Assembly: GCA_025361065.1 (NCBI GenBank)
Contig: JANYAY010000160.1
Coordinates: 1 to 32,215 of the forward strand
Reading direction: 5' to 3'
DNA: 32,215 bases
From: Deltaproteobacteria bacterium
Lineage (GTDB): Bacteria; Desulfobacterota; Syntrophia; Syntrophales; Smithellaceae
In this document: positions 7,671-25,895 of the stretch, piece after piece
Position numbering within the stretch: the first letter of the stretch is position 1
How the letters are laid out: each line of letters begins with the position of its first letter
The notes under the pieces: generated by a model
What the model saw: the letters and a program-made list of their open reading frames with translations, nothing else
What the model was told of the DNA's origin: nothing
Database searches by the model: none
Translations under genes and position numbers: made by a program

Positions 7671-7700
7671 CAAATAAATAATTCAAGCACGGGAGTATGC

Positions 7701-8600
7701 ATGAGAGCATCAACGAAAGCATTGATGGCTAAACATGGCTGGAGGTTGGATCGGGCAATTCACAATTATATTTATTTCATTTTCTATTACCCCTATGTGA
7801 GATTTGTCTATTATCTGTTTAAATATCTTGCAAAATATTTATCATGGTTCAAACCGCTAAATCCAATCGTCAGTATGGCGCTAAACAGGTATCATGCGAA
7901 AATCCTGTCCGGCGGAGACGTGACAAAGATATTGACTCTCAATGAGGATATAAGCGCGATTTCCGAAAAAAATAAAATGATCGTCCCCTTTAAATATGCT
8001 TACAAGATCCTGTTCAAAAATCCGGAGTATATTGCAGTTGTCGACTGCCCCTGCAAAAAAACACTGAACGCAGCACCCGATACGATAAACTCGTGTTTAT
8101 GTGTGGGAAGCGGTACCGCCACCTTCTGGGTGGACAGTCTCTCGAAAAAATACAATGCCCGGAAGATCAGCCAGCAGGAGGCCCTGGATATGATCAGGCA
8201 CTATCGGAAGCTGGGCTACATCAATCAGGCATTCTTCAAGGTTGCGACCGGCGGCAGCACCGGGGTGATCTGCAATTGTCACCCGGACACCTGCGTTTCC
8301 CTGCAGGCCACGAAATTCGCGAAAAAGTTCGACAAAGACTTCACCCAGAACGCCTATTCCGGCTACTCAGTCCGGCGCGATGAAGCAAAATGCAAAAAAT
8401 GCGGGACATGCGCTTCCGTATGCCATTTTGAAGCCATTACGGTTGTCCCTGAAAAAAGCTGGTCGTACAATAATGAAAATTGCACTGGTTGCGAACTGTG
8501 CGTCGAGCACTGTTCCGAAGGGACACTTTCCCTGTTTTGCGACCCGTCGAAGCCGCTACCGCTTGACATTGATCTCGTGAAAGCCGAATTCGTACAATAA
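7701..8600 (+). CDS. Cysteine-rich 2x[4Fe-4S] ferredoxin-domain protein with hydrophobic N-terminus
   Basis: A 299-residue protein. Residues 22-50 are rich in Tyr/Phe/Leu (YIYFIFYYPYVRFVYYLF) and could anchor it to the membrane surface. The middle has unusual cysteine pairs: C116-x-C118, C132-x-C134 and C191-x-C193-x4-C198. The C-terminus holds two ferredoxin motifs: C231-C234-C237-C241 and C261-C264-C267-C271, but with His and Ser instead of the usual Pro after the fourth Cys. The protein is related in layout to the one at 14263-15078 in the same cluster. Likely an electron carrier feeding or draining the flavoproteins next door (inference); the middle cysteines may hold a further metal centre. 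Confidence 0.85.
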   Translation: MRASTKALMAKHGWRLDRAIHNYIYFIFYYPYVRFVYYLFKYLAKYLSWFKPLNPIVSMALNRYHAKILSGGDVTKILTLNEDISAISEKNKMIVPFKYAYKILFKNPEYIAVVDCPCKKTLNAAPDTINSCLCVGSGTATFWVDSLSKKYNARKISQQEALDMIRHYRKLGYINQAFFKVATGGSTGVICNCHPDTCVSLQATKFAKKFDKDFTQNAYSGYSVRRDEAKCKKCGTCASVCHFEAITVVPEKSWSYNNENCTGCELCVEHCSEGTLSLFCDPSKPLPLDIDLVKAEFVQ

Positions 8601-8612
8601 AGGACTGTATCC

Positions 8613-9908
8613 ATGAAAGAATATGATGTGATCGTCGTGGGGACCGGGACAGGCGGCTCAACAGTCGCGCGGGAAATGACCAATCGCGGGAAAAAAGTCC
8701 TTATGCTCGAGTCCGGCGGGCGGTGGGAATGGATGGGCAACACCATGACCGTCGCTATGATGCTAAAGCATTTCGGTCTGGTGCGCAGCAAGGAGGGGCG
8801 AACTGTTACCTTCGCTGACAACTATGGCGGCCTATCGAACATTGCAGCCGGATGCGCGGCACCTCCCCCCAAAGCTGTTTTCGACCCGGTGGGAATCGAC
8901 CTCACAGAGGAGGCAAAAGAAGCGAAGAAAGATCTGTGGATACAGAAACAACCCGACGAGCTGGTGGGAAAGGCGAATCTGCGCCTCCTGGAGGTTGCCA
9001 ACAGCATTGGGTACCACTGGGGGAAAATGGACAAATTCATCGATCCGCAGCGGTGCAATGCCAGCGGGGACTGCATGCTGGGATGCAAGACCGGCGCCAA
9101 GTGGACTGCTCGCGTCTACGGCGATGAGGCGGTAAGTAAGGGCGCGGACCTCCATCTCCATACTAAGATCACGGAGGTAATCGTTGAAAACGGTCGGGTG
9201 GTCGGGGTAAAGGGGACAAAACTAGGCAGATCGGTCCAATATTTCGGGAAAGCCGTTGTGCTCTCAACAGGGATCGATAATGCACATATCCTTCGCCGTG
9301 CCGGGATTGCCCGCGCCGGAAAGGGTTTCTGCTGCGACTGGCTTCAATTCGTGGGGGCGGAGATACCCGGCATGAATACCATAGGTGCTACGCCCATGTC
9401 CGTGGGTTCGCTGGAGTTCTATGAATCTGACGGCATCGCCATTGTTCCGGTATTTCCCAACTGGTCAATGTATGCGGCAACACTCGCCTTTGCGGGGCCG
9501 AAGAGTCTGCTGAAGTTCCCCCGATTTTGGAAGCTTTCGGGCATAATGGTGAAAGTGCGGGATGAAACGGCGGGCGAGCTTTTCGAGGGAGTATCCTTCT
9601 CCAAGAAGGTCAGCAAAGCTGACCAGATGAAACTCGATAAGGGAATTGATATAATCAAAAAGGTGTTTCGTAAGGCCGGAGCAAAAGATTCGAGTATACT
9701 TCCTCTCAATCCGCAAGGCGCTCATCCATCGGCAACATGCAGAATCGGCGATGTGGTGGACATTAACCTGGAGACGGAGATCAAAAACCTCTACTGCTGC
9801 GACGCAAGCGTATTGCCTTCAGCTCTGGGGTTGCCGGTTATATGGACCGCAGTGGCTCTGGGTAAACGTCTGGGGAAGCATCTGGCTGCCGGCTCGGCTG
9901 ATCGGTAA
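8613..9908 (+). CDS. GMC-type FAD oxidoreductase with internal cysteine motif
   Basis: A 431-residue flavoprotein. The N-terminal FAD fold is at residues 5-16 (DVIVVGTGTGGS). The C-terminal GMC signature is GAHPSATCRIG at 369-379, with His371 in the place of the catalytic His, followed by LYCCDASVLPSALGLPV. The protein is shorter than choline/glucose oxidases (about 540-600). Cys148, Cys154 and Cys158 (RCNASGDCMLGCKTGAKW) form a motif seen in some long-chain alcohol oxidase-like GMC proteins and may bind Fe-S. Family role: oxidation of an alcohol or a ring/double-bond reaction on a lipid. The gene lies 12 bases after the ferredoxin-domain gene, so direct electron exchange is plausible. Cholesterol-oxidase-like or long-chain alcohol dehydrogenase activity are alternatives. 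Confidence 0.88.
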   Translation: MKEYDVIVVGTGTGGSTVAREMTNRGKKVLMLESGGRWEWMGNTMTVAMMLKHFGLVRSKEGRTVTFADNYGGLSNIAAGCAAPPPKAVFDPVGIDLTEEAKEAKKDLWIQKQPDELVGKANLRLLEVANSIGYHWGKMDKFIDPQRCNASGDCMLGCKTGAKWTARVYGDEAVSKGADLHLHTKITEVIVENGRVVGVKGTKLGRSVQYFGKAVVLSTGIDNAHILRRAGIARAGKGFCCDWLQFVGAEIPGMNTIGATPMSVGSLEFYESDGIAIVPVFPNWSMYAATLAFAGPKSLLKFPRFWKLSGIMVKVRDETAGELFEGVSFSKKVSKADQMKLDKGIDIIKKVFRKAGAKDSSILPLNPQGAHPSATCRIGDVVDINLETEIKNLYCCDASVLPSALGLPVIWTAVALGKRLGKHLAAGSADR

Positions 9909-9994
9909 TCCACACTGTGTACCGATTCAGTCGGAGTATTTTATCAGACATCAAACATAACACGTAAATTCCAAACAATCCGCAAGGGGGCATT

Positions 9995-10381
9995 ATGAAA
10001 CTTTGGTCACGAGGTTTGGGGAAGCAGGAGATTCATATGGATTTCAGGTATTGCAAAGCCTTAAAGGATCCGGAAACAGGTAACATGCTCATTATAGGAA
10101 AAATGCAGAGTCCGGTTACCTGGGAGTTTAAAATTACATTCCAGCCGGAAGATATCGGCGGTATAGTGAAACTCGCTTTTTGTCCTTCCCTGCTTTTTTT
10201 TGCCATTAAAAATTTGCCCCAGTATCTGATCTATCTTATGAACAAAAAAAAATTTCAACAGGAAGGGAATATTGTAGAAAAGGTTAACGCCGCATATGAA
10301 CAGTGTATGACCGGCGGCCGGGTACATTACCGTGAACCAGCGTCGCTTTCTTCGAGCGCGGCTGCGTCGCAGGAGGTATAA
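9995..10381 (+). CDS. Small hypothetical protein
   Basis: A 128-residue protein with ribosome site AAGGGGG before the ATG at 9995. Residues about 60-80 are hydrophobic (FCPSLLFFAIKNLPQYLIYLM), possibly a membrane-associated helix; the N-terminal half looks beta-rich. The stop is 2 bases before the next ATG at 10384, so it is translationally linked to the FAD enzyme that follows. No family recognised. Being sandwiched between redox enzymes suggests an accessory or lipid-handling subunit (inference). Confidence 0.7.
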   Translation: MKLWSRGLGKQEIHMDFRYCKALKDPETGNMLIIGKMQSPVTWEFKITFQPEDIGGIVKLAFCPSLLFFAIKNLPQYLIYLMNKKKFQQEGNIVEKVNAAYEQCMTGGRVHYREPASLSSSAAASQEV

Positions 10382-10383
10382 CT

Positions 10384-12099
10384 ATGCCCGATTATGATGT
10401 TATCGTCATAGGAGGCGGCATCAATGGCCTCTGTTGTTCCGCCTACCTGGGCAAAGCCGGCCTGAAGACCCTGGTCCTTGAAGCCCGGGGCGAATGCGGG
10501 GCTCATTGCGACACCAGCGAGCCGGGCATTCCGGGATTCCTTTATAATCTTCACGCGACCATGCTGGCCACAGGTTTCGGACCGCCGATGCAGGATCTGG
10601 AACTGGAAAAATATGGACTGGAACTGAGGAACACCTCCTATGTCTGGGGAAAGCCGTTTCTCGACGGCACGAATGCCCTCATCGCCTCCAACCCTTACGA
10701 CACCATGGAAAACTGGGGAAAGCATTCTAAACAGGACCGTGCCCTTTTGGAAAATGCGCTGGAGTTTCTGTACCCGCAGATGCTGGATTTTACCGATATT
10801 GTACATCGGTTCATGTATACAGCCCCCACTGCCGAGACCATGCGGGATTTTTCCGATTTTATGGGCCGCTTTTTCCAGCACCTGGGCAAAAATGTGACCG
10901 GCGAGCAGTTCATGAAAATGAACGGCTTCGAGGTCATGGATGCCATGTTTGAATCGGACCACATCAAGACCATGGTGCAGGCCATGGAATGGATAATCGG
11001 GTTTCCCCCCATACATCCGCAGATCGGCGCGATCGGTTCTCTGCTGGGTCTGCTTTCCGGCTCATTCTTCCCGCTTACAACGGCCAAGGGGGGCTCCCAT
11101 GCTGTGACCCACGCCCTTATCCAGGCGAACGTGGCGAGCGGCGTCAAGATCATGTCCTGCTGCCCGGTGAAGACAATCATCATGAAAAACGGGGAGGCCC
11201 AGGGAGTGGTACTCCACGAAGACGCCATTTATCCCAACCAGGAGATCACGGCTAAAAAAATCGTCAGCAATATAACCGTTGTGCCGACCTTCATCGACCT
11301 TATCGGTGAGGAACACATTTCCGACAAGGATCTGGTCAAAAGAATAAAGAACTTCAATTACCATGAGCAGACAATATTTACTGTCCATTACGCTCTGGAC
11401 GGTCCGCCTAAGTGGAGAACAGCCGATTATGATGAAGGCATCATGCGCTCCTGGATGGGATATTTCGGCGGTGAAACCACCGCTGAGATGAGAAAGTACT
11501 CCCAAGCGATCATCGACCAGGAGATCTACCCGGAAATTTACGCTAACTGGTACCTTCCCACCCTTGCCGATCCTACCCAGGCCCCGGCAGGCTGCCATGT
11601 AACCCAGGCGTGGATTGACATTCCGGGAGAACCATTGAAATGGAAACACGGACGGCTCGGAGGCAAGAATTCGTTCATGGATATCAAAAACGTTCTGGCC
11701 GACCAGATTACCGATGCTTATGAACGCTACGCACCTGGTTTCAAAAAGCAGATACTGAACCGTTACATCTATTCGCCCCTGGAGCAGGAACGGAATAATC
11801 CCTCGGCAATCCAGGGTTGCTGGGCGGGTGGCAGCGTTATTCCGGAACAGTTCTACGACAAGCGTCCGGTCCCCGGCGTGTGCGTCGGCGGTGGATCCAG
11901 AACCTTCTTGAAGAATCTGTATCTGTCCAATTCAATTCATCCCTTCGGGATTACGCCGTTGGGTTCAGGATACATTGCCGCCTGCGAGGTTGCCGAGGAC
12001 ATGGGCGTACGCGAGCAGGAATGGTGGACGAGCAAAGCGACCCATTGGTATCTGGAGAATGCCGCCAATATTCCGCTTGATCTCGGTGTGAGGAGGTAA
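10384..12099 (+). CDS. FAD-dependent oxidoreductase, phytoene desaturase-like (2 of 3)
   Basis: A 571-residue protein, long for the family. The N-terminal FAD fold is DYDVIVIGGGINGL at residues 3-16 with LVLEARGECGAH following. The C-terminus has the expected flavin-contacting segment (GVCVGGGSRTFLKNLYLSNS) and a GSGYIAACEVAEDMG end. Ribosome site AGGAGG is 8 bases upstream of the start. The next gene begins 2 bases after the stop and is a relative of 520 residues. The pair may form a two-step or heteromeric saturase/desaturase (inference). FAD binding is well supported; the direction of reaction and substrate are not. Confidence 0.88.
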   Translation: MPDYDVIVIGGGINGLCCSAYLGKAGLKTLVLEARGECGAHCDTSEPGIPGFLYNLHATMLATGFGPPMQDLELEKYGLELRNTSYVWGKPFLDGTNALIASNPYDTMENWGKHSKQDRALLENALEFLYPQMLDFTDIVHRFMYTAPTAETMRDFSDFMGRFFQHLGKNVTGEQFMKMNGFEVMDAMFESDHIKTMVQAMEWIIGFPPIHPQIGAIGSLLGLLSGSFFPLTTAKGGSHAVTHALIQANVASGVKIMSCCPVKTIIMKNGEAQGVVLHEDAIYPNQEITAKKIVSNITVVPTFIDLIGEEHISDKDLVKRIKNFNYHEQTIFTVHYALDGPPKWRTADYDEGIMRSWMGYFGGETTAEMRKYSQAIIDQEIYPEIYANWYLPTLADPTQAPAGCHVTQAWIDIPGEPLKWKHGRLGGKNSFMDIKNVLADQITDAYERYAPGFKKQILNRYIYSPLEQERNNPSAIQGCWAGGSVIPEQFYDKRPVPGVCVGGGSRTFLKNLYLSNSIHPFGITPLGSGYIAACEVAEDMGVREQEWWTSKATHWYLENAANIPLDLGVRR

Positions 12100-12101
12100 T
12101 T

Positions 12102-13664
12102 ATGAAAAGCACGGAATATGATGTGATAATAATAGGAGCCGGCCCCAACGGACTCATCTGTGGCGCCTATCTGGCACGGACCGGTCTCAAGGTCGCCCTC
12201 ATGGAGCGCAGGCATGAAACCGGCGGCGGACTGGACACGCTGGAGCTCGCCGGGTTTAAATACAATCCGCACGCCATCTATCATATGATGGGGGAATACA
12301 TGCCTCCCTACCGCGACTTCAATCTCGCTGAGCGCGGAGTGAAGTATATCTATCCGGATGCCCAGGCCGCGTATATCGGGAAGGGGCACAAGCCGGTCAT
12401 GCTGTATCTCGACCCGAAAAAAACAGCTCAGTATCTTTCAGCCAGCTTCAGCAAAGAAGACGGCGATCGGTATACGCGCATGTATAGCGAGTTCAAGGAA
12501 CTTTCCGAGTCAATCGTCATGCCGCTGACCTATATCCCGGCCCTGCCGGCGATGGAGCAGGTCCCGGCTTTCGCGATTGAGCACGGTGAGCTGGGCGAGA
12601 GATTCAATGAAATATCAGAAATGACGCCGTTGGAAATACTGGAAAAACGTTACGGCTTTTCCGATCCGATCAAAGCGGCCCTGTACAATCTCTTTGCCAT
12701 GTGGGGTCATTCCAACTATGACGGGCTGGGATTTCTCTTTCCGCTTTATGTATACCGTATGCTCAACGCTGCACTGGTAAGCGGCGGCTCCCACCGGCTT
12801 TCATCGGCCCTCCACAAGGTGATAATAGAGGCGGGCGGTGATATATGCGATTTGTCGGATGTCACGAAAGTCCTGCTTACGGGGGGCAAGGTATCGGGTG
12901 TGCGTCTCTCCGACGGAGCCGAAGTCAAGGCGAAGACGGTTGCATCCACCGTTGACCCGAAACAGAATTTCCTCGAGTTTTTTGAAGAGAGTCAGCTTCC
13001 TGCCGACCTCGTACAGTGCGCCCGGAGGTGGGAGTGGGAAAAAGTGTCCTATTTCGGCATTCATCTTTCGCTGCGGTCGGCACCCCGATATATCGGCACC
13101 GAAGGCGTTGACGACGCCAACAGGGCATTGATGACCCACCTGGGAGTCGGCGATACCGAGGAAATACTGTCCAATTACCAGGATATGGAAGACGGAAAGC
13201 TCCCCGGTTGTCCCCATGGCCATACCACGATAGCATCCCTCTTTGACCCGATACAGGGATACGGAACGTACCATACCGGCCGGTGGGAATCCCTGGCTCC
13301 CTTTGACCAGGACTGGGACTTGATCAAAGGTGATTACGCGAAGCAATGCCTGGATACATGGAAGCAGTATGCCCCGAACCTTGATCCTCTGGATCCGATG
13401 AACACGCTCATCTATCCTCCGACATATATAGAAAAGAAATTCAAGAACATGGTGCGGGGCTCCATCAAGCAGGGGTCATACATGACCCTCCAGATGGGAT
13501 ATAACCGGCCCCATGACTCCTGTTCCCGCCACTATACGCCCATCGAAGGATTTTACGTGTGCGGTGCCAGCACGTATCCCGGAGGTATGGTCATTGGCGG
13601 CCCCGGGTATCTTGGCGCAAAAATTATCGCCGAGGACCTCGGGGTGAAGAAGAATTGGAAGTAA
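12102..13664 (+). CDS. FAD-dependent oxidoreductase, phytoene desaturase-like (3 of 3)
   Basis: A 520-residue protein with the FAD fold at residues 6-18 (YDVIIIGAGPNGL) and a MERRHETGGGLDT segment in place of the usual E-x6-GG(R/G) motif. The C-terminal half shows GFYVCGASTYPGGMVIGGPG, close to the carotenoid desaturase C-terminal consensus. The start is coupled to the preceding gene: GAGGAGG overlaps that gene's last codons. Closest functional group by pattern is phytoene desaturase / retinol saturase-type enzymes. No other carotenoid genes are in the window, so a carotenoid role is not supported. Confidence 0.9.
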   Translation: MKSTEYDVIIIGAGPNGLICGAYLARTGLKVALMERRHETGGGLDTLELAGFKYNPHAIYHMMGEYMPPYRDFNLAERGVKYIYPDAQAAYIGKGHKPVMLYLDPKKTAQYLSASFSKEDGDRYTRMYSEFKELSESIVMPLTYIPALPAMEQVPAFAIEHGELGERFNEISEMTPLEILEKRYGFSDPIKAALYNLFAMWGHSNYDGLGFLFPLYVYRMLNAALVSGGSHRLSSALHKVIIEAGGDICDLSDVTKVLLTGGKVSGVRLSDGAEVKAKTVASTVDPKQNFLEFFEESQLPADLVQCARRWEWEKVSYFGIHLSLRSAPRYIGTEGVDDANRALMTHLGVGDTEEILSNYQDMEDGKLPGCPHGHTTIASLFDPIQGYGTYHTGRWESLAPFDQDWDLIKGDYAKQCLDTWKQYAPNLDPLDPMNTLIYPPTYIEKKFKNMVRGSIKQGSYMTLQMGYNRPHDSCSRHYTPIEGFYVCGASTYPGGMVIGGPGYLGAKIIAEDLGVKKNWK

Positions 13665-13736
13665 ACTGGGCAAAGGAATAGGGTATGTTCCGGCAGGAGA
13701 ATATTCATAATGTAACGATACCACTGGAGGTACGGC

Positions 13737-14135
13737 ATGGCAAACCTGTTTTTATCAGATGCATGGTTCGCTGAATCAGAGAAGATTGCCCAATCTTTTG
13801 GGAAAATTGATCTCCCGGAAAAGCTGGTCGGGTTTATCCTTAATCTGACCGTAACCGGGGGCCCGGGAGGCGACAAGGCGATACACTTTACCGAGGGCAG
13901 ATTCGGAAACGGGCATCACAAAAACGCGAAGACGCTGCTAACCCTTCCTTACGATATCTGTTACAAGGCACTGCTGTGCAATGATACCAAGGAGGCTATG
14001 AAGGGATTCCTCACCAGGAAGATCAGGGTTAAGGGTCATATGGCCGAAATGCTGACCTTGGCCAGCATTAAGTCCGAGGGCGACCTGGAAGCCCTTCGGG
14101 TGAAAGTCTGTGCAATGACCGAGCCCGTCATCTGA
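13737..14135 (+). CDS. SCP2-like lipid-binding protein
   Basis: A 132-residue protein. Residues about 60-105 match the sterol-carrier-protein-2 pattern: a strand, then a helix with ALLCNDTKEAMKGFLTRKI, then the family hallmark IRVKGHMAEMLTL. Single-domain SCP2 proteins bind fatty acyl chains, sterols or acyl-CoAs in a hydrophobic tunnel. Ribosome site CTGGAGG precedes the 13737 ATG. Its location within the FAD/Fe-S cluster suggests it presents a hydrophobic substrate to the flavoenzymes (inference). No signal peptide, so cytoplasmic. Confidence 0.7.
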   Translation: MANLFLSDAWFAESEKIAQSFGKIDLPEKLVGFILNLTVTGGPGGDKAIHFTEGRFGNGHHKNAKTLLTLPYDICYKALLCNDTKEAMKGFLTRKIRVKGHMAEMLTLASIKSEGDLEALRVKVCAMTEPVI

Positions 14136-14262
14136 GAACGTCCGGGAACAGCAGCATGGAAAACACAAAATAGCTAAATCTCTCCGGGTCATGTTCCCCG
14201 CAGTGAACAGAACTTGTAGTTAAAGAGTCGGGGATAATATTTCAATTTCTGAGCGGAGGCAT

Positions 14263-15078
14263 ATGAGCCTGAAGCAGTCATTGGTCGCGTGGGTAATGCA
14301 GCACAAATCCTTGTTTAAACCAGGTCATCGTGCCATCGAATGGCCCTTTTTCCTGGGGCATATCCCCCTGCTGCGGGACATTCACCCCTGGCTTTCCCGG
14401 CGCAAGAGCAACATCACCTACCTCCCCATCAATGAAACCCTTCACGCCCAAGGCGTCCCCATGCCCGCCGAAGTGATCGCCGCGTACATCGAACAGTCGC
14501 CTTACCATGTCATCATGAATCGCTGCCTATGCCGTACGGCAAGGGACTGCCGGGATCACCCCCTCAACATCGGATGCCTTTTCATGGGAGAAAGCGCCCT
14601 GCAGATGCCACCCCAGATTAGCCGCCGTGTGGACGCGCCGGAGGCCTTGCGCCACCTGGAACAGGCGCTGGCAGCCGGTCTGGTCCCGCTCGTCGGCAAG
14701 GTGCGGTTCGATAATTTTGCCTTCCTCATCCCGGATGAAAAAAAACTTCTGAGCGTCTGTTTCTGTTGTTCCTGCTGCTGTATGATGGCCTATTACCGGC
14801 ACCTGCCGCCCGACCAGCTCGACGAGGTATTCCCCCGTCTGGAAGGATTGAGCATCGAGGTTACCAATGACTGCAGGGGCTGCGGCACCTGTGCCCGGAA
14901 CTGTTTTGTCAAGGCTATCACCGTGGAGAACGGCAAGGCCGTGCACTCGGCGACCTGCCGCGGATGCGGGAGATGCGCTCGTTTCTGCCCCAATCAGGCG
15001 GTACGGATCACTCTGACTAAACCCGATTACCAGGAACATGTCCTCCGCAGAATCAACGATCACGTCGATTTCCAGTAA
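14263..15078 (+). CDS. Cysteine-rich 2x[4Fe-4S] ferredoxin-domain protein with CFCCSCCC motif
   Basis: A 271-residue protein. Middle cysteines are C88-x-C90, C96, C105, then C166-x-C168-C169-x-C171-C172-C173, six cysteines in eight residues. Two C-terminal ferredoxin motifs follow: C204-C207-C210-C214 and C232-C235-C238-C242. The second has the normal CP ending. Overall plan is the same as the 7701-8600 protein, so the two are relatives flanking the flavoenzyme genes. The start at 14263 has GGAGG 5-6 bases upstream. Last gene of the cluster. Likely electron transfer; the cysteine run may hold an additional cluster or a heterodisulphide-type site (inference). Confidence 0.87.
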   Translation: MSLKQSLVAWVMQHKSLFKPGHRAIEWPFFLGHIPLLRDIHPWLSRRKSNITYLPINETLHAQGVPMPAEVIAAYIEQSPYHVIMNRCLCRTARDCRDHPLNIGCLFMGESALQMPPQISRRVDAPEALRHLEQALAAGLVPLVGKVRFDNFAFLIPDEKKLLSVCFCCSCCCMMAYYRHLPPDQLDEVFPRLEGLSIEVTNDCRGCGTCARNCFVKAITVENGKAVHSATCRGCGRCARFCPNQAVRITLTKPDYQEHVLRRINDHVDFQ

Positions 15079-16334: not shown

Positions 16335-17195
16335 CTATTTATTATACTGGTAAAAACCATTTCCCGTCTTTTTCCCGTGCCTGCCCGCCGTGACCATTTT
16401 ACGGAGCAGTGGACGCGGCCGATACCGATCTCCGTACTCCTGGAAAAGAACTTCGTGCACCTTCAGGTTCAGATCCAGCCCCGTAATGTCGAGAAGTTCG
16501 AAGGGACCTACCGGGTGCCCCAGGCCCAACTTGCAGGCGGCATCGATATCTTCCGCAGTGGCCACGCCTTCCTCCAGAAGCCGGATGGCCTCGATAAAAA
16601 AAATGTTCAGCAGCCGGTTGACGGCAAAACCCGCCACATCCTTGATTTCCACCGGTGTTTTGCCGAGGGTCAAGACCGCCTCCTTTGCCGTCTCCACGGC
16701 ATCTCTTCCGCAAAGGAAACCGGGAATCACCTCCACCAGTTTCATGACAAAAGCCGGTGAAAAGAAGTGCATCCCCAGAAAACGCTCCATCCGCTTCGGA
16801 CTTACGGTGGCAGCAAGTCTTGTAATGGGAATGCTCGATGTGTTGCTCGCTATCACGCAACTCTCCCGGCAAACCGCATCCAGCGTCGCGAAAATTTTGC
16901 TCTTGATTCCCCAATCCTCGCTGGCCGCTTCTATAACCAGATCCACGCCGGCCATATCCTCTAGCCGGTCGGTCGCTACTATGCGATTCAGGATGGATTC
17001 CCTGGCGGCTGCGTCCGTTCGACCTTTCTTGATGCTCTTGTCGAGCACCTGACCCTGCCGTTTTTTGCCGGTTTGCGCAAGCTCCGGCGTCGCGTCGCTC
17101 ATCACCACCTCGTAACCGGCAGCGGCAAAACAAAGAGCAATTTCCGCGCCCATCATTCCTGCTCCCACTACTCCAACTTTTTTCAGATCTGTCAT
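16335..17195 (-). CDS. 3-hydroxyacyl-CoA dehydrogenase (3-hydroxybutyryl-CoA dehydrogenase type)
   Basis: A 286-residue protein, the usual length for stand-alone 3-hydroxybutyryl-CoA dehydrogenases. The NAD motif GAGMMG is at residues 11-16. Catalytic His143 is in GMHFFSP and Glu93 in AASED. The C-terminal domain ends with [14 protein letters not shown], typical of the family. It oxidises 3-hydroxyacyl-CoA to 3-oxoacyl-CoA with NAD+. It is the last gene in the minus-strand mutase/MeaB operon, 78 bases after meaB. This suggests that the mutase yields a 3-hydroxyacyl-CoA or that both serve one acid-degradation route (inference). Confidence 0.93.
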
Positions 17196-17273: not shown

Positions 17274-18260
17274 TTATATGCTGTTTTTTTCATCATCCTC
17301 CAAGCAGCCTTTCTGAATGCGCCTGATTATCAGTTCTGCAGCCTCGATCGGAGTCATTGATAAGGTCAGAACCTTCCCGGCCATTTCATCCAGATGGGGC
17401 TCGGCATCGCCTGCCAGCCGCGTCAAAACCGACGACCGGATTTCTTCGACAATCCTTTTACGATGCCTCTCTTGGCCCTGCAGCGCCTTCCGCTGCCTGA
17501 CCTCAGCGATTGCTTCCATGACGTCGTCAATTCCTTCATTCTGGTCCGCAATCGTGTTTAAAACCGGAGGTCTTTCCTTTTCCGCTTTCATGTAAAGAAT
17601 ATTCTGAACCTGTTTTTTCAGCAGGTCAGCCCCGGGGCGGTCCGACTTATTGATGACGAACAGATCGGCGATTTCCATGATACCGGCTTTGGCCATCTGG
17701 ATGGTATCTCCGTAACCGGGAACAAGAAGGACGGTTGTTACATCGACATACCTGGCGACATCAATCTCATCTTGACCCACACCCAGGGTTTCGACAATAA
17801 TGACGTCGAAGCCGAATGCCTTATATAGGTACAGGGCATACTTAGTCGCTTCCGAGAGCCCGCCCAGCGCCTTGCGGCTGGCAAGACTCCGGATATATAC
17901 CCCGTTGTCGGGATTATGCTCCTGCATGCGAATCCGGTCTCCCAGAACGGCTCCGCCGGAAAAGGGAGATGTGGGGTCAACAGCCATAACACCGACGGTT
18001 TTCCCCGAACGGCGGTAATGCCGGATCACCGCATTCACCAATGTGCTTTTCCCGACCCCCGGTGCTCCGGTAAAACCTAGAGTAAAACAAGCCTCGGAGG
18101 CCCTTTGGAAAGCGTCGTTCAGCAGGGCGTCCCTGCCCTCTTCATAATTTTCCACAATGGAAATAGCCCTTGTCAGCCCGCGAATATTTCTCGCTTTCAT
18201 CAAACTGATGGCTTCGTCCACACGGGGTATTCCGGTTAAGTTGTGCAAAAATACCTCCAT
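17274..18260 (-). CDS. meaB: MeaB/ArgK-type G-protein chaperone of B12-dependent mutase
   Basis: A 328-residue P-loop GTPase of the MeaB family, which guards cobalamin loading and protects acyl-CoA mutases from inactivation. Walker A is GAPGVGKS at 65-72, then VDPTSPFSGGAVLGDR. The switch-like VETLGVGQDE is at about 156-165, and the base-specificity motif NKSD at 204-207. Length matches the family. Start: ATG at 18260 has GAGGA almost touching it, so the in-frame TTG at codon 5, preceded by GGAGG, is a possible true start. It sits directly downstream of the two mutase subunits, as expected for its partner. Confidence 0.95.
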   Translation of the reverse strand: MEVFLHNLTGIPRVDEAISLMKARNIRGLTRAISIVENYEEGRDALLNDAFQRASEACFTLGFTGAPGVGKSTLVNAVIRHYRRSGKTVGVMAVDPTSPFSGGAVLGDRIRMQEHNPDNGVYIRSLASRKALGGLSEATKYALYLYKAFGFDVIIVETLGVGQDEIDVARYVDVTTVLLVPGYGDTIQMAKAGIMEIADLFVINKSDRPGADLLKKQVQNILYMKAEKERPPVLNTIADQNEGIDDVMEAIAEVRQRKALQGQERHRKRIVEEIRSSVLTRLAGDAEPHLDEMAGKVLTLSMTPIEAAELIIRRIQKGCLEDDEKNSI

Positions 18261-18337: not shown

Positions 18338-18736
18338 TCAGCAGGCCACGTTCCGGATATGGGTGAGAATTACATCCATCGGTGTTCCCGGTCCGTAATT
18401 TCCGGTCACACCCATCCTTTCGAGAACCTTGACATCCTCTTGTGTCAGAAGCCCCCCGGCGATAATCGGCATATCCGTTACGCCCAGTTTCTTTAATTCG
18501 GCCAGCACTGCTTCCGCGATAATCGGAAGACTGCCTGTGTGGTCGCTCAAAGCAATCACGTCAACGTCTTCGGATACAGCCGCATTGGCGACGCCTTTCG
18601 GCGTTTGATACCGTCCCGTATAAATTGCTTCCATCCCTTCGTCGCGGAATGTCGTAAGCAGGGTTAAGGCGCCTCTTTCATGGATGTCGCAACCTACCTT
18701 GGCAATCAATACCCTGATCTTTTTCTCCTTCGGCAT
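18338..18736 (-). CDS. Acyl-CoA mutase small subunit, B12-binding
   Basis: A 132-residue Rossmann-type cobalamin-binding protein, like the separate small subunits of isobutyryl-CoA and 2-hydroxyisobutyryl-CoA mutases (about 136). The base-off/His-on motif DxHxxG is intact: D17-I-H19-E-R-G22, with His19 as lower axial ligand. The next motif, S-x-L in methylmalonyl-CoA mutase, reads S64-D-H66 here; the late GG motif is kept in IIAGGLL. I chose ATG at 18736 because AAGGAG lies 8 bases upstream; a GTG at 18745 that overlaps the large-subunit stop (GTGA) is the longer alternative. Partner of the 563-residue subunit immediately upstream. Confidence 0.93.
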   Translation of the reverse strand: MPKEKKIRVLIAKVGCDIHERGALTLLTTFRDEGMEAIYTGRYQTPKGVANAAVSEDVDVIALSDHTGSLPIIAEAVLAELKKLGVTDMPIIAGGLLTQEDVKVLERMGVTGNYGPGTPMDVILTHIRNVAC

Positions 18737-18741
18737 GTTTT

Positions 18742-20433
18742 TCACTCCTTCACGATTTCCCGGACAAATTCCGGTGTTTCGATTTCTTTGAGGGGATCAT
18801 AGTTGTAACCTGCTCCCATACGGATAACGCCGACGCACTCGCCGATTGTCATGCCTGCTTTGGCCGCTTCGATGACCGGGCGCTGCGTGTTCCGATTCTC
18901 CTTTGTCGCCCGGTAGACTTCTTTCATCAGCGGCGCCAACCGTTTCTTGTCGCGTCCGGCCTTGAATGCCTTGACTTCTGCCACCATTGCCTCGCGCGCG
19001 GCGAGGGAAGGCGATTTGTAGGCTATATCGCGGATGGCCTTGTTAATCGGACCTTCCTCACCTTCCTCCCGGAAGGAATTGACGCCGACAATCAGTCGCT
19101 TGTTCTCGGCCTTTTCGCGCTGCACCTTCAATCGTCCGGCTTCCATCACTTCATTGAGCCATCCGGTTTCCAGGCAGGCGAAAATCCCCCCCCGGGATTC
19201 GATTTCCTGGAGGTAGGAATTGACTTCTTGTTCCATGCGGCTCGTGAGCCATTCCACGTAATAGGATCCTCCCAGGGGATCGGCAACCAGCGGAACATTG
19301 GCTTCATGAGTGATGATGTGCTGGGTATCCAGATTGAAGATCCGGGCTTCCAGTGAAGGCAGTCCTATCGCCTCGTCGATACTGGATGCATCCAGAGAAT
19401 TGACACCGCCCAGAACACAGCTTAATATCTGCAGCGTCACACGGGCGGCATTATTCAACGGTTTCTGGCTGGTTAGAGAAAGTCCCGATGTGCGGATCCC
19501 GATTTTCAGCTGCATCGCCCGCTTGGTCTTCGCGCCGAATTTTTCCCTGGCAATCTTGGCCCACATTTTCCTGGCCAGACGAAACTTGACAATCGTTTCG
19601 AAGAAATCCGATTCAGCGTCGAGGGCGAACACCATGGCGCCAAAATCGTCTATCGCGATGCCGCGCGCCGCCAGATCAGTCATAACCTGCGTGGCAACCG
19701 CCAGACAACCGCCCAATTCTTTGATCGCATCCATGCCGCCCTGGCAGGGATCAACCCCGTTCGGCGCAATCGGACGCCAGTTCGGCGTGTTGCGGATGGA
19801 GTACTCGATGTGATCCAGGCAGATGCGCCGGTCCAGTTTTGTCGGGAAATCAGGACAACCATAGACGAGCTTCGTCCGGATAGGATCGTTGATGCTGTTT
19901 CCCCGTAATGTCTGGAGATCGATTCCTTTATTTTCCATCACGGCGACGAGCAACCCGTAGAAATAGAGGAAGCTCGACATCCCGGCATGGGCAAACTCAA
20001 AAATCGCCTCCCCCAGCGGAAGCCCTTCGAGCATTTTCTCGTAAACAGGAATGGCGTAAGTGGCAACACCGCCGCACATCATGCTGTTCCAGGCGGAGGG
20101 ATGATCGGGGTCAATTCCCGCCTGGGTCGGCAGATCGCAGAGAAGGCGCAAATCGGTCAGTCCGTTGGCAATATAATTGCGGAAGGCCTGATTGGTCTCT
20201 TCAGCCGTTGCGTAACTGACGATAAATGACTTCAACCAGAGACGATCCCGGTACATCTCGGGATAAAGGCCCCTCGTAAAGGGAAATGCCCCGGGATCAC
20301 CGATATCCTTTTCATAGGAAAGATGATTTATGTCTTCGGCATTATAAAAAGGTTTTAATTCCAAACCGCTTTGTGTTGCCGTCCTCACCATGTGGCCGGC
20401 CTTGCGATCTACTTTTGCTTCAATGTTTGCCAT
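18742..20433 (-). CDS. B12-dependent acyl-CoA mutase large subunit, non-canonical active site
   Basis: A 563-residue TIM-barrel subunit of the methylmalonyl-CoA mutase family, the size of IcmA/HcmA rather than of full mutases (about 700+). Family blocks are clear: FPFTRGLYPEMY, CDLPTQAG, RTSGLSLTSQKPLNN, DPLGGSYYVE. Aligned from memory to P. shermanii MCM, key residues differ. Tyr89 becomes Ile71 (as in 2-hydroxyisobutyryl-CoA mutase), Ala116 becomes Leu98, and carboxylate-binding Arg207 becomes Tyr191. The Tyr243-His244 pair becomes Val227-Asp228. Arg82 (Arg64 here) is kept. It therefore should not use methylmalonyl-CoA. Ribosome site AGGAGG precedes the ATG. First gene of an operon with small subunit, MeaB and a hydroxyacyl-CoA dehydrogenase. 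Confidence 0.93.
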   Translation of the reverse strand: MANIEAKVDRKAGHMVRTATQSGLELKPFYNAEDINHLSYEKDIGDPGAFPFTRGLYPEMYRDRLWLKSFIVSYATAEETNQAFRNYIANGLTDLRLLCDLPTQAGIDPDHPSAWNSMMCGGVATYAIPVYEKMLEGLPLGEAIFEFAHAGMSSFLYFYGLLVAVMENKGIDLQTLRGNSINDPIRTKLVYGCPDFPTKLDRRICLDHIEYSIRNTPNWRPIAPNGVDPCQGGMDAIKELGGCLAVATQVMTDLAARGIAIDDFGAMVFALDAESDFFETIVKFRLARKMWAKIAREKFGAKTKRAMQLKIGIRTSGLSLTSQKPLNNAARVTLQILSCVLGGVNSLDASSIDEAIGLPSLEARIFNLDTQHIITHEANVPLVADPLGGSYYVEWLTSRMEQEVNSYLQEIESRGGIFACLETGWLNEVMEAGRLKVQREKAENKRLIVGVNSFREEGEEGPINKAIRDIAYKSPSLAAREAMVAEVKAFKAGRDKKRLAPLMKEVYRATKENRNTQRPVIEAAKAGMTIGECVGVIRMGAGYNYDPLKEIETPEFVREIVKE

Positions 20434-21417: not shown

Positions 21418-21833
21418 TTTGTAAACAGCAGCAGTTCTCGTGTCATAATAATATATGGTGCATTCTGCTTGCCAGTGCACCAGTATAGATAAACGGAGGA
21501 CATGATGGGATTTTCCGGTAGTATGTGAAGCACGACCAACACGCACAACAGAAAGAATCCCCTCATACCCTGCAGCCATCTTACACAAAAAGACCGATAT
21601 GTCATCAGCCATTTAAGTCTTGCCGGTTATTCGCAAAGAGAAACCGGACCTGAGAAAAGTCCGGTCATAAAACCGATTCGGAAGAAACCATTGCCTAACC
21701 TGTTGTTGTTGCGTTAAAAAATAACGCTTATCGCTCTTGATTTTTGCGTTCAATGGTGCTACCTACTTGTGCGAGGATTGGTTCGCTCCACCGGCAACAG
21801 CAACGCGAAAAATCCGGACATGGGGTAACGATC
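21418..21833. other. Intergenic region with hairpins, no gene
   Basis: No coding sequence recognised. It holds ACCGGAC-(9)-GTCCGGT at 21643-21665, an overlapping alternative pairing of CCGGTT (about 21623) with AACCGG (21642-21647), and GCGTTA-AAAAA-TAACGC at 21711-21727. These could be terminator or operator elements for the SDR operon; no clear promoter boxes were found. Confidence 0.4.
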
Positions 21834-22664
21834 ATGAAGAGCTTTGAGCGCAAGATGATCTATATCACCGGTGGTTCGAGCGGGATCGGGCTGGCAATGG
21901 GCAGGGTTTTTGCGGCCCAGGGTGCACATCTGCTCCTCCTGGCAAGGGATGAGCAAAAGCTTAAGGATGCCGGCCGGACCGTGGAAAAATCACGGCGCAG
22001 CCACACCCAGAAGGTTGGCACAATGTCCCTGGATGTGGCCGACCCTGCGGCTGTGAAAAAAAAGATGAAAATTGCTCTGGACATATACGGAGCCCCCGAT
22101 ATCCTCATCAACAGCGCCGGCATCAACAAGTATGCCGATCATTTCGAGAACATAACCTATGATATGTTTGACGAGGTGATGAAGATCAACCTCTATGGCC
22201 CCCGCAATATGATACATACCTTGCTCCCCGTCATGAAAACCGGGAAAGGCCATGTGGTAATCCTCTCTTCGGCAGCCGGCCTCTTCGGGATGTTCGGCTA
22301 TACGGCCTACGGGACATCCAAGGCGGCACTGCTGGGGTTATCCGACAGCTTGCGCTACGAGCTGAAGCCGCTGGGGATGAAGCTGACAGTCATCTGTCCG
22401 CCGGAGGTAGATACCCCCATGAACATTGACGAAGCCAAGACGCTGCCTCAGGAAGGCAGAGCAGTGAAAAGCTTGGGCGGGTTCCTGACTCCCGAATTCG
22501 CCGCAAAGGTCATCATAAAGGCCATTGCCAGAGAACAATACCTGTATATACCCGGGGCATCAACCCGTTTCCTCTATCTACTGCATCGTTTATCCAACGG
22601 GTGGCTCACCCGGATGACGTCGGATGCGGTCATCAGGAGAGCACGAAAGAAGATGGGAAAATGA
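21834..22664 (+). CDS. Short-chain dehydrogenase/reductase (SDR)
   Basis: A 276-residue classical SDR. Cofactor motif TGGSSGIG at 12-19, NSAG at 93-96, catalytic Ser145/146, Tyr159 and Lys163 (YGTSK). The C-terminus (LHRLSNGWLTRMTSDAVIRR) is basic and hydrophobic, reminiscent of 3-ketodihydrosphingosine reductase-like SDRs that work on lipids at membranes. I chose ATG at 21834 because the nucleotide fold begins there; the frame is open to 21744, but the extra 30 residues look non-homologous. First gene of a plus-strand operon with DUF362, split transketolase and SCP2-like genes. Predicted reaction: NAD(P)H-linked reduction of a keto lipid or acyl intermediate (inference). Confidence 0.9.
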   Translation: MKSFERKMIYITGGSSGIGLAMGRVFAAQGAHLLLLARDEQKLKDAGRTVEKSRRSHTQKVGTMSLDVADPAAVKKKMKIALDIYGAPDILINSAGINKYADHFENITYDMFDEVMKINLYGPRNMIHTLLPVMKTGKGHVVILSSAAGLFGMFGYTAYGTSKAALLGLSDSLRYELKPLGMKLTVICPPEVDTPMNIDEAKTLPQEGRAVKSLGGFLTPEFAAKVIIKAIAREQYLYIPGASTRFLYLLHRLSNGWLTRMTSDAVIRRARKKMGK

Positions 22665-22713
22665 TTTTGCCGAATGTCCAGGTTGTGATGGAGACATTAC
22701 TAAAGGAGAGACT

Positions 22714-24003
22714 ATGTCCAAGGATCGGTGGGTTTTACTGCGCAAGGTTGAGTCGTACAATCCCTCATTGATGAAAGCGGTCGTGCAGGAGGCTTTCGAT
22801 CTGCTCGGCCGTAAACCGCGGGGTAAGGTACTGATCAAGCCCAATGTCGTCTTTGCCAACAAGCACTATTCACAGCATGCCTTTACCAATCCGGAGCTGG
22901 TAGGTACAGTGGTGGATCAGGTCCGGTCCTATCCGGGAGTCGCAGATCTCTCCATCGGTGAATCAGGCGGTTTTGCCATCCCCACACGTCTGAACTTCAA
23001 GGAGGCCGGTTATTATGAAATGGGCGCCCGCCACCGCGTCCCCATAACTGATTTCAATGAAGACACATACGTAAAGGTGGCCCTGAAGAAGGCCGCCTGC
23101 CATAAGACGCTTCTCTGCCCAAGGCTGATCCATGAAGCGGATTTCAAGATCTGGATGCCCAAGCTCAAGTACCATATCTGCTGCGAGATCACCAATGCTC
23201 TCAAGCTCAATATAGGCAGCCTCCTCCACAAAGAGCGCATGCTTTATCACGACGACCGCCTGAACGAAAAGATAGTGGACATCCTGGAAATAGGCTATCC
23301 CGACCTCATCGTTACCGATGCCGTAACCATCGGCCATGGATTCGAATCCTGCGCCAAACCCTTCCACCTCGGGCTCATCATGATCAGTAATGATCCGATT
23401 GCCTCCGATGTCGTGGCGGCCCAGATCCTCGGGTATAAGCCCGAAGCGGTCAACCACCTGCGGATCGCCTCTGAAAGAGGTTACGGGTCCATCGACCCGG
23501 ATTCGGTCAATGTCCTGGGGGATATCAGCATCGCCGAGCTTGCCCGGCGAACCTCCGGAATAGTAAGCGAGTTTCAGGATATCCAGAAGCTCGATACAAA
23601 GATACGCTTCTATGAGGGAATCGGCCCGAACACGAATCAGATCTGTTATGGCGGGTGCATGGCGGCGGTAAAGGGCAGCCTGGGCACCATTGATGCCCGC
23701 CGTCCCGGTTCCATCAAAAAGGCCAAGCCCGGCGCCATGGTCACAGGCATCTATGAAGGGGATGTGGATGCGGACGGCGGGGTGTGCCTGCTCATCGGCG
23801 ACTGCACCGAAGTGAAGGGGACAATCAGGGCCAAACGCATCAAGCGGGTGAAAGGATGCCCCATCGGTGCCGTCAAGCTGACCAGCGTGCTGCCCTTTGT
23901 CTTCGGCATGCCGTCCCCCATGTTCGACCCCCGGGATGTCCCGCTCATCGCATTGAACACCATCGAGAAGATCGTGAACAAGGCCCGGCATGGGGCTTTT
24001 TAA
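22714..24003 (+). CDS. DUF362 domain protein
   Basis: A 429-residue DUF362-type protein: GKVLIKPNVVFANKHYSQHA near the N-terminus, SIGESGGFA, a LKYHICCEITNALKLNIGSL segment and the FHLGLIMISNDPIASDVVAA block are family hallmarks. Late cysteines (ICYGGCMAAVKG, then CLLIGDC and KGCPIG) are clustered and may bind a metal or Fe-S. The family's biochemistry is unknown. The start at 22714 has AAAGGAGAG upstream; 26 bases separate its stop from the transketolase start. Presence between an SDR and a transketolase suggests a redox or activation role in the same pathway (inference). Confidence 0.88.
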   Translation: MSKDRWVLLRKVESYNPSLMKAVVQEAFDLLGRKPRGKVLIKPNVVFANKHYSQHAFTNPELVGTVVDQVRSYPGVADLSIGESGGFAIPTRLNFKEAGYYEMGARHRVPITDFNEDTYVKVALKKAACHKTLLCPRLIHEADFKIWMPKLKYHICCEITNALKLNIGSLLHKERMLYHDDRLNEKIVDILEIGYPDLIVTDAVTIGHGFESCAKPFHLGLIMISNDPIASDVVAAQILGYKPEAVNHLRIASERGYGSIDPDSVNVLGDISIAELARRTSGIVSEFQDIQKLDTKIRFYEGIGPNTNQICYGGCMAAVKGSLGTIDARRPGSIKKAKPGAMVTGIYEGDVDADGGVCLLIGDCTEVKGTIRAKRIKRVKGCPIGAVKLTSVLPFVFGMPSPMFDPRDVPLIALNTIEKIVNKARHGAF

Positions 24004-24028
24004 AGATAATTATAGTAAGGAGGTTGGA

Positions 24029-24877
24029 ATGCCGCTTACACAAGAAGGAATAAAAGGACTCACAAAAAAGGCATGGGAGATCAGAAGGGCTATTATTGAA
24101 ACTACCTTTACCTGCGGCGGATCGCACCTCGGAGGATCGCTTTCCCAGACCGATGTGCTCGTTGCGCTCTATTACAAGTATCTCCGGATAGACGCGGCCA
24201 GGCCGCAATGGGAAGATCGCGATCGGTTCATCCTGAGCAAGGGGCACGGGGGCATAGGATGGGCGACTATACTGGGCGACAAGGGGTTCTTCGACAAGGC
24301 TCTCCTCAAGGACTTCAATAAGACGGGCAGTCCCTTTGGTATGCACCTGGACAGCCGCCGGGTCAAGGGATGTGATGCCTCCACCGGCTCTCTGGGCCAC
24401 GGACTGGCCATCGCTATCGGTCTTGCCGTCGGAGCCAGACTGCGAAAAAAAGATTATCGCACCTATTGCATGATGGGTGACGGCGAACTCTGCGAAGGAA
24501 CTGTCTGGGAGGCTTCAATCCTCGCCGGTCACCACAAGCTCGACAATCTCACTGCCTTTGTGGATCGGAACAGCCTCATGATCGACGGCCCCACCGAGCA
24601 GATTACCACCCTGGAACCCATTGATGAGAAGTTCAAGGCCTTCGGCTGGGAGACACTCGTGATAGACGGGCATGACTTTGCCGCTATCGGAGAGGCCATC
24701 GAGAAGGCCCAAACCATCAAGGGAAAGCCCACAATCATCATCTGCAAAACGATCAAGGGCAAAGGTGTAGACATTATGGAAGGCCAGGCGCAGTGGCATT
24801 ACGGCGGGTTGAATTCCGACTTGCGGGATCAGGCCCTGGCATGCATTGATAAACATTATCGGGAAATACCCGGCTAA
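24029..24877 (+). CDS. Transketolase, N-terminal subunit
   Basis: A 282-residue thiamine-diphosphate-binding half of a split transketolase. The ThDP motif runs from GDGELCEG at about 150 to VDRN at 178-181. Other family residues are seen: His33 (GGSHLGG), His73 (SKGHGG), and DASTGSLGHGL at 116-125. Ribosome site AAGGAGG is 7 bases before the ATG at 24029. Reaction: transfer of a two-carbon ketol unit between sugar-like donor and aldehyde acceptor, with the C-terminal subunit encoded next. Many bacteria use such split pairs for pathway-specific purposes; here the companions are lipid-type genes rather than pentose-phosphate genes. Confidence 0.95.
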   Translation: MPLTQEGIKGLTKKAWEIRRAIIETTFTCGGSHLGGSLSQTDVLVALYYKYLRIDAARPQWEDRDRFILSKGHGGIGWATILGDKGFFDKALLKDFNKTGSPFGMHLDSRRVKGCDASTGSLGHGLAIAIGLAVGARLRKKDYRTYCMMGDGELCEGTVWEASILAGHHKLDNLTAFVDRNSLMIDGPTEQITTLEPIDEKFKAFGWETLVIDGHDFAAIGEAIEKAQTIKGKPTIIICKTIKGKGVDIMEGQAQWHYGGLNSDLRDQALACIDKHYREIPG

Positions 24878-24887
24878 GGAGGCACGT

Positions 24888-25895
24888 ATGGCTGAAGGTA
24901 TGACATGGTCGGTAACGGACGGCGACAAGCTCACACAGGCTGAAGTATACGGTGAGGTGCTCTCCCAGCTCGGAGACAAGTATCCCGATATCATCGCCAT
25001 AACTGCGGACCTGGCCAGCTCCACGAAGATCGAACGATTCGGAAAGAAGTATCCGGAACGGTTCATCAATGTGGGTATAGCGGAAAACTCCATGTTCGGC
25101 ATGGCTGCCGGTCTCGCCCTGGCTGGATTCAAACCCGTGGTCTCCACCTTTGCCGCCTTCACTGCGCTCAGGAGCGCCGAGCAGGTGCGTACGGACATTT
25201 GTTACCAGAACCTCGACGTTAAAATCATCGCCACCCATGCCGGGATCTCCTTCGGACAGGCGGGCTCCACCCACCACTGTACCGAGGACATTGCAGTCAT
25301 GCGCTCATTTGCGAACATGACAGTTATTGTTCCGGCCGATGGTTTGGAGACCGGCAATGCAGTTGCTGCCGCCATGGAATGGCCCGGACCAGTTTACATC
25401 CGAGTGGGCAGGGGGTTCGAGCCCCCGGTGAACAAGACCAAGGATTATGGCTATGAGATCGGCAAGGCCATCACCATGCGGGAAGGCAGGGACATTACAA
25501 TCATTGCTTGCGGCGTCGGTGTTCTCCATGCTGTGCGCGCGGCGGAAGTGCTAGCCCGGCAAGGCCTGAGCGCACGCGTAATCAATATGCATACCATCAA
25601 GCCCATCGACCGCGATGCCATTATCCAGGCGGTCAAGGATACTCGGCGGATAATTACGGTCGAAGACCACAACCTCATCGGCGGTCTCGGCTCCGCCGTG
25701 GCGGAAGTCATCATTGAGACCGGCAAGGCCTGCGGCTTCAGGAAGCTTGGTGTTCCGGACTGCTACTCCATCGTCGGCTACCCCGAAGACCTTTACCACT
25801 ATTACAAGTTTGACGCCGACGGAATCGTTGAGACGGTCAGTGAACTCATGCGCATGGAAATCGAAGAAGACGAAGACTGGGAAGACGAGGTATAA
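24888..25895 (+). CDS. Transketolase, C-terminal subunit
   Basis: A 335-residue pyrimidine-binding plus C-terminal half of transketolase. It starts with AITADLASSTKIERF and has the catalytic Glu66 in NVGIAEN, the STFAAFTALRSAEQVRTD block and the GQAGSTHHCTEDIA loop. The C-terminal domain begins near residue 200 (GVLHAVRAAEVL). It ends in an acidic tail (EIEEDEDWEDEV). Start ATG at 24888 with TAAGGAGG overlapping the stop of the N-terminal subunit, so the two are translationally linked and should form the alpha2beta2 enzyme. DXS-like (deoxyxylulose) synthases share this half, but length and split favour transketolase. Confidence 0.95.
   Translation: MAEGMTWSVTDGDKLTQAEVYGEVLSQLGDKYPDIIAITADLASSTKIERFGKKYPERFINVGIAENSMFGMAAGLALAGFKPVVSTFAAFTALRSAEQVRTDICYQNLDVKIIATHAGISFGQAGSTHHCTEDIAVMRSFANMTVIVPADGLETGNAVAAAMEWPGPVYIRVGRGFEPPVNKTKDYGYEIGKAITMREGRDITIIACGVGVLHAVRAAEVLARQGLSARVINMHTIKPIDRDAIIQAVKDTRRIITVEDHNLIGGLGSAVAEVIIETGKACGFRKLGVPDCYSIVGYPEDLYHYYKFDADGIVETVSELMRMEIEEDEDWEDEV

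Follow-up and report, generated by a model that had tools for sequence, protein, structure and literature searches.

Methylmalonyl-CoA mutase (MCM) binds the carboxylate of its substrate through Arg207 and Tyr89, His244 and Gln197 contact the thioester oxygen, and the other residues compared here line the CoA channel. Residue numbers follow 1REQ, for which an offset of +1 was applied by us to the PDB chain index. In 2-hydroxyisobutyryl-CoA mutase (HCM), AspA117, which is Asp at 116 in 1REQ numbering, is taken here to contact the substrate hydroxyl, and the combination Phe89/Gln207/His244 is assumed to be the signature of isobutyryl-type mutases. Mutase small subunits carry the adenosylcobalamin-binding signature DxHxxG...SxL...GG. 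To our knowledge, few specificities of B12 acyl-CoA mutases have been characterised.

The mutase described here is encoded in a window of 32,215 nucleotides, the whole stretch of DNA that was analysed. It resembles HcmAB (4r3u) in its separate large subunit of similar size, its barrel fold and the Ile at 89; however, the Asp, Gln and His of HcmAB at 116, 207 and 244 are Leu98, Tyr191 and Asp228 here. With MCM (1req, human MMUT) it shares the fold, the B12 domain motif and a MeaB-type chaperone, whereas Arg207, Tyr89, His244, Gln197, Arg87, Arg283, Ser114, His328 and Gln330 of MCM are all changed. Arg207 is absent as in IcmAB/IcmF (by the assumed signature), and IcmF matches the modelled fold with Z 31, but the Phe89/Gln207/His244 assumed for those enzymes is missing (Ile71/Tyr191) and, unlike IcmF, the mutase is separate from its G-protein.

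Organization and fold of the mutase

The operon features and active-site codons are listed in Table 1. The GTG start of the small subunit overlaps the stop of the large subunit by 4 bases, and 78 bases separate the dehydrogenase and MeaB genes. The large subunit scored 446 bits against PF01642 (cut-off 22) and 345 bits against TIGR00641 (cut-off 304), while its score against PRK09426, the model of methylmalonyl-CoA mutase proper, was 287 bits and under the cut-off of 876. The small subunit reached 108 bits against TIGR00640 (cut-off 57) and the MeaB-type gene 281 bits against TIGR00750 (cut-off 241). No RNA family was found at E ≤ 0.1 between positions 15000 and 24000.

Table 1. Features of the mutase operon and codons of active-site residues in the window
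Feature	Position	Strand	Family, motif or basis
Mutase large subunit (TIM-barrel, substrate), 563 aa	18742..20433	(-)	PF01642, TIGR00641
Mutase small (B12-binding) subunit, 135 aa, GTG start	18338..18745	(-)	TIGR00640, DIHERG
MeaB-type G-protein chaperone	17274..18260	(-)	TIGR00750
3-Hydroxyacyl-CoA dehydrogenase, possibly co-transcribed	16335..17195	(-)	PF02737+PF00725
B12 motif D-I-H-E-R-G, small subunit	18671..18688	(-)	kept in clade
S-D-H where other mutase small subunits have S-x-L	18539..18547	(-)	alignment
Asp228 codon (His244 of methylmalonyl-CoA mutase)	19750..19752	(-)	alignments
Arg314 codon (Gln330), basic partner of Asp244	19492..19494	(-)	alignments
Tyr191 codon (Arg207)	19861..19863	(-)	alignments
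Ile71 codon (Tyr89)	20221..20223	(-)	alignments
Arg96-Leu97-Leu98 codons (Ser114, Val115, Ala116)	20140..20148	(-)	alignments
Ser69 codon (Arg87)	20227..20229	(-)	108-row alignment

An AlphaFold2 model of the large subunit, built on 29 aligned sequences, had a mean pLDDT of 76 and a pTM of 0.81, with loops below 50. HCM was the top PDB match by sequence and, in Foldseek as well as VIA-align, by fold; the VIA-align match to 4r3u gave a Z of 37.0 over 503 residues at 27% identity, and several MCMs within 1 Z unit (Z 36–37) made this a tie.

The window and 11 close loci form a clade of 12 rows from several phyla. The DIHERG motif was present in all nine clade small subunits aligned (L005, L006 and L011 are outside this alignment), and GG was also kept. 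At the S-x-L site the nine rows had SDH in seven, SDM in one and SDL in one; S-x-L was present in four of the five non-clade small subunits aligned. By its families the protein is predicted to be a two-subunit mutase, with a PF01642 barrel, a DxHxxG B12 subunit and a MeaB neighbour in 7/12 loci. The sequence-only reading had taken subunit size and the MeaB partner as confirming a functional mutase architecture. The mutase part of this stands on the B12 acyl-CoA mutase families and fold, together with a small subunit in 12/12 loci; the MeaB partner is adjacent in seven.

Distribution and selection

A collection of 84,980 species was scanned with six peptide patterns, for which an exact match was required and members may be missed. 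The scan returned 29 loci, 11 close (67–87% identity to the window) and 18 distant (29–35%). The close loci, all in metagenome-assembled genomes (MAGs), belong by record title to Syntrophaceae/Syntrophobacterales (3), Desulfobacteraceae (1), other Deltaproteobacteria (2), Proteobacteria (1), Actinomycetota/Actinobacteria (3) and Firmicutes (1). Within the window's order, 4/155 genomes matched at E ≤ 1e-130, source genome included; an even draw of the phylum gave one match among 395 genomes, the source genome itself, and three searched genomes of the same genus gave none. The clade therefore appears rare and patchy, as laterally moved genes would be. The source bacterium is probably anaerobic, and the clade hosts are probably syntrophic anaerobes.

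Selection was assessed by the Nei-Gojobori method, comparing the window with ten others and excluding L013. Four of the ten pairs had unsaturated dS and gave dN/dS of 0.03–0.10, a rough ratio as dS was still 2.0–3.0; in the remaining six dS was saturated and pN/pS was 0.11–0.30. The clade is under purifying selection. Two genes are broken: the L013 large subunit is frameshifted (MAG contig, about 2880–2900), and the L005 small subunit lies in two pieces in different frames (2500–2788).

Separately, one family (f59) of the window's phylum includes eight genomes (G192, G227, G260, G288, G314, G338, G360 and G381) with 15–30 candidate acyl-CoA mutase places each. These counts are a first look with three places scored per genome, and they look as if the acyl-CoA mutase family has expanded greatly there.

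Active-site residues

Residues were compared in MAFFT alignments of 82 and 108 rows and in a separate phmmer comparison with PDB chains, with 4r3u, human MCM and 1req as reference stretches. The 82-row alignment was made without eight duplicate rows and without loci repeating the window or L003/L004/L008. Three proteins doubled in the earlier alignment are single in the 108-row set, one partial ORF of L088 was skipped, and L013 is represented by its N-terminal piece only.

Five correspondences had been drawn by hand in the sequence-only reading: Tyr89 as Ile71, Ala116 as Leu98, Arg207 as Tyr191, Tyr243 as Val227 and His244 as Asp228. Both MAFFT alignments reproduced them exactly and phmmer gave the same pairing. 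The five stretches are gap-free and flanked by columns invariant across the 29 sequences (M60, R62, W66; L101, P102; G178, D183; G226, G233), and all five changes are identical in the 12/12 orthologues (window + 11). The Ile at 89, which that reading had likened to 2-hydroxyisobutyryl-CoA mutase, does align with the Ile of that enzyme.

Its list of lost residues was right as far as it went but too short. Nine further changes occur in 12/12 rows at positions identical among 4r3u, human MCM and 1req: T85L, R87S, G91S, S114R, Q197I, deletion of R283, H328G, Q330R and Q361N. The exact site of the 283 deletion depends on the alignment, yet no Arg is present between residues 262 and 284. In addition, R326 is Lys in 12/12 clade rows, F117 is Cys or Ala and F287 is Ala or Ser. 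Tyr75 and Met78 are kept in 12/12 and Arg82 in 11/12 rows. Of the 108 rows, the 12 of the clade alone combine Ser87 with Arg114, as if an arginine had been shifted across the CoA channel.

Pairing of residues 244 and 330

His244 had been called near-universal in the earlier reading. HCM and the two MCMs, the characterised enzymes in the comparison, do keep it, but the family at large does not: the 108 rows had 61 His, 35 Asp, 7 Asn and 5 other residues at 244, in a set enriched in relatives of the query whose counts are not family-wide frequencies. Loss of His244 is thus common to a wider set of mutases beyond the clade. PDB entry 1e1c is titled as an H244A mutant.

In 33 of the 35 Asp244 rows, the 12 of the clade included, residue 330 was His, Arg or Lys, and the two exceptions (L061 and L063) were placed elsewhere in a tree of 96 rows. 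His244 was accompanied by Gln330 in 50/61 rows and by His or Arg330 in six, and Asn244 by Gln330 in 7/7. This pattern suggests that 244 and 330 act jointly and that a charged pair replaces His-Gln here, the rows being related and the events not independent.

Besides the clade, 21 uncharacterised rows carry Asp244 (L033, L035, L085–L100, L107, L108 and L050) and are 33–37% identical to the window protein. They share with it the basic residue at 330 and the loss of His328; in contrast to the clade, they mostly keep Thr85, Arg87, Gly91, Arg283 and Gln361.

Phylogenetic position

The careful tree was built from 65 of the 108 rows, with 43 near-copies, long or distant rows taken out. A quick tree held 96 rows (12 distant rows out), and in it the long branches H1 and L097 were flagged as meeting. 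In the 65-row tree the clade had 100/100 support on a stem of 1.66 changes per site, and another 100/100 branch split the rows into 35 and 30. The 35-row side contained the reference MCMs, HCM, the isobutyryl-type Phe89/Gln207 rows, three Asn244 rows and others; the 30-row side contained the clade, 17 other Asp244 rows and one Asn244 row (L111). The same split had an SH-aLRT of 81 in the 96-row tree. The three reference MCMs and L071 formed a separate 100/100 group with the clade outside it. The clade thus lies across a 100/100 branch from the MCM, HCM and isobutyryl-type parts, and the trees do not support a placement with MCM or HCM. The rows closest to the clade had moderate support (81/92), and its exact position is less sure because its stem is long.

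Gene neighbourhood of the clade

The small subunit directly follows the large one in 12/12 loci (broken in L005), and MeaB adjoins the mutase in 7/12. MeaB gave no match at E ≤ 1e-6 in L005, L007 and L013, each with room for it; L006 and L011 lie close to the ends of their contigs, with 434 and 874 bases remaining. No gene besides the small subunit and MeaB was found in more than two clade loci, and therefore the neighbourhood gives no substrate clue.

Several genes were considered as partners and rejected. L007 and L009 both have a VAO-type FAD gene and a FixC/FixX-like pair flanking the mutase; homologues of the FAD gene occur in 5/12 clade genomes (E ≤ 1e-20) and in none of the four from the window's order. 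Neither a gene common to L005 and L007 nor the ADP-forming acyl-CoA synthetase-like genes of L004 and L008 are general. L004, L008 and L003 were assigned to genomes G087, G118 and G123 by their matching contig coordinates. In L013 the place of MeaB after the small subunit is taken by a gene with weak matches to B12-binding radical-SAM families. The window itself has, at 5511–15078, a TetR gene followed by a run of FAD and ferredoxin genes (amine-oxidase-like, GMC-like, two CrtO-like and two 4Fe-4S proteins), and, upstream of the mutase operon at 21744–25895 on the (+) strand, a short-chain dehydrogenase, a DUF362 protein and a split transketolase pair.

Surroundings of other Asp244 mutases

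Sequence clustering revealed acyl-CoA dehydrogenase homologues in 7 of 13 stretches around the Asp244 mutases checked (L050, L053, L115, L116, L117, L120 and L122; none in L056, L114, L118, L119, L121 and L126), which suggests that at least some Asp244 mutases handle CoA esters. Gene families were checked in L050, L053 and L117. A Paraburkholderia plasmid cluster with an Asp244 mutase contains acyl-CoA dehydrogenases and an enoyl-CoA hydratase. Three mutases stand in a row in L053 (G048:C1, 8615–16040), a contig from the window's order. Their large subunits differ, with Asp, His and Asn at 244; a small subunit comes after each of them, and the cluster has a single MeaB. Thiolases, acyl-CoA dehydrogenases and a hydroxyacyl-CoA dehydrogenase are encoded around them. 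Homologues of an HMG-CoA-synthase-like gene, which in L053 has a ChsH2-type OB domain, and of a thiolase-type gene occur near the Asp244 mutases of L050, L053 and L118 (the Paraburkholderia plasmid and two other contigs).

In L117 (G514:C68, 3–16680), the large and small genes of the Asp244 mutase are separated by an amine-oxidase-like FAD gene. The cluster further contains two 2-hydroxyacyl-CoA dehydratase-type genes, a D-2-hydroxyacid dehydrogenase, a CoA ligase, an acyl-CoA dehydrogenase, ETF-like genes and a TPP oxidoreductase (PF01855+PF02775), whose domain layout we read as that of an indolepyruvate oxidoreductase.

Proposed function and mechanism

The explanation considered probable is that the window encodes an adenosylcobalamin-dependent acyl-CoA mutase with two subunits, which belongs to a separate clade and acts on a non-dicarboxylic and probably hydrophobic acyl-CoA. 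The new specificity that the sequence-only reading had suggested is likely, since the substrate-contact residues are replaced in a conserved manner and the clade lies outside the MCM, HCM and isobutyryl-type parts of the tree.

Catalysis would begin with Co–C homolysis and hydrogen abstraction by the 5'-deoxyadenosyl radical, followed by a 1,2-shift of the CO-S-CoA group between neighbouring carbons and return of the hydrogen. The substrate would have no free carboxylate near the cobalamin and would sit in an apolar frame formed, at the MCM/HCM substrate sites and neighbouring sites, by Ile71, Leu98, Ile181, Tyr191, Val227, Ala270 and Leu271. The thioester-polarising job of His244/Gln197 would pass to the Asp228-Arg314 pair, in which Arg314, held by Asp228, may polarise the thioester. 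CoA would be held differently, with Arg96 for Arg87 and Arg283 lost. Apolar or aromatic residues occupy the positions that hold a carboxylate in MCM and a hydroxyl in HCM. A substrate with either group is therefore unlikely, and an acyl-CoA that is bulkier or has a branched alkyl chain would fit better.

A substrate that is no CoA ester may also be considered, because most of the CoA-side residues compared are changed. The bolder proposal is a histidine-less mutase with Asp-Arg for His244-Gln330 and no usual hold on the CoA channel, acting on an acyl compound new to B12 mutases and possibly no CoA ester, which together with the other Asp244 mutases would be a second branch of the acyl-CoA mutase family. 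We regard this as unlikely.

Two alternatives are narrower versions of the preferred reading. A mutase of the isobutyryl-/pivalyl-CoA type, converting a plain branched alkyl acyl-CoA with drifted contacts, would agree with the apolar residues and the loss of Arg207, and an exchange of branched and linear acids could be useful to the probably syntrophic hosts. However, the same genome has another mutase (L001) with the Phe89/Gln207/His244 that we take as isobutyryl-type, and the clade is far from such rows in the tree, which leaves this version rather unlikely. The second version, in which the acyl-CoA is aryl or otherwise bulky and a ring lies where MCM holds the carboxylate, would agree with the replacement of Phe117 by Cys/Ala and of Phe287 by Ala/Ser and with Tyr in place of Arg207. 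The indolepyruvate-oxidoreductase-like and 2-hydroxyacyl-CoA dehydratase-type genes beside the L117 mutase point the same way, as does a phenylsuccinyl-CoA mutase, IaaGH, named in the literature (PMC8360864). Yet L117 is a relative at 35% identity outside the clade, and the aryl version is considered improbable.

The sequence-only reading had found a 3-hydroxyacyl-CoA product attractive, and a 2-hydroxyisobutyryl-CoA-type mutase whose product is oxidised by the adjacent dehydrogenase, as in acetone use by Desulfococcus biacutus, would account for the Ile at 89, the dehydrogenase downstream of MeaB, the short-chain dehydrogenase gene at 21744–22664 (opposite strand to the mutase) and the rank of HCM among PDB matches. 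Such a product is not supported, as the dehydrogenase lies beside the mutase in 1/12 loci, the window only (0/11 in the available flanks of the others, short in several), and the residue at the place of HCM Asp117 is Leu98. Gln207 and His244 of HCM are likewise replaced, and the 100/100 branch separates clade and HCM. The acetone gene set, as outlined in the published accounts, comprises a TDP enzyme annotated as acetolactate synthase, a two-subunit B12 mutase and a dehydrogenase (PMC8084838, PMC7888143). Among the window's ORFs above 221 aa, all scanned with Pfam or NCBIfam, there is a split transketolase and no acetolactate-synthase-like ORF. The acetone/HCM pathway, compared within the window by this gene set and for D. 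biacutus by description, was rejected, and an HCM-type enzyme is held to be quite improbable.

A non-catalytic or decayed mutase, for which the changes at most of the catalytic contacts compared and the broken genes of L013 and L005 could be cited, is very improbable given 12 loci across phyla, the low dN/dS in four pairs, the adjoining small subunit and MeaB genes and the intact DIHERG motif.

Significance

By sequence comparison, the active site is unlike those of the studied relatives compared, namely HCM, the MCMs and, by its assumed signature, the isobutyryl type (ethylmalonyl-CoA mutase, pivalyl-CoA mutase and IaaGH sequences lie outside this comparison), and the specificity may be new. 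Among the plasmid matches listed (60 of 426), no record was labelled ethylmalonyl-, isobutyryl- or pivalyl-CoA mutase. Literature titles and abstract starts included none on an Asp244 mutase or on the clade, a weak absence as structure papers on HCM and IcmF were also missed.

Together with the other Asp244 mutases, the clade suggests that an anaerobe part of the family has been rebuilt around a different polar pair, and it gives access to a part of the acyl-CoA mutase family that is uncharacterised and open to testing. Identification of the substrate would extend anaerobic carbon degradation by a further carbon-skeleton rearrangement, and it would test whether a thioester histidine is needed for the radical 1,2-shift.
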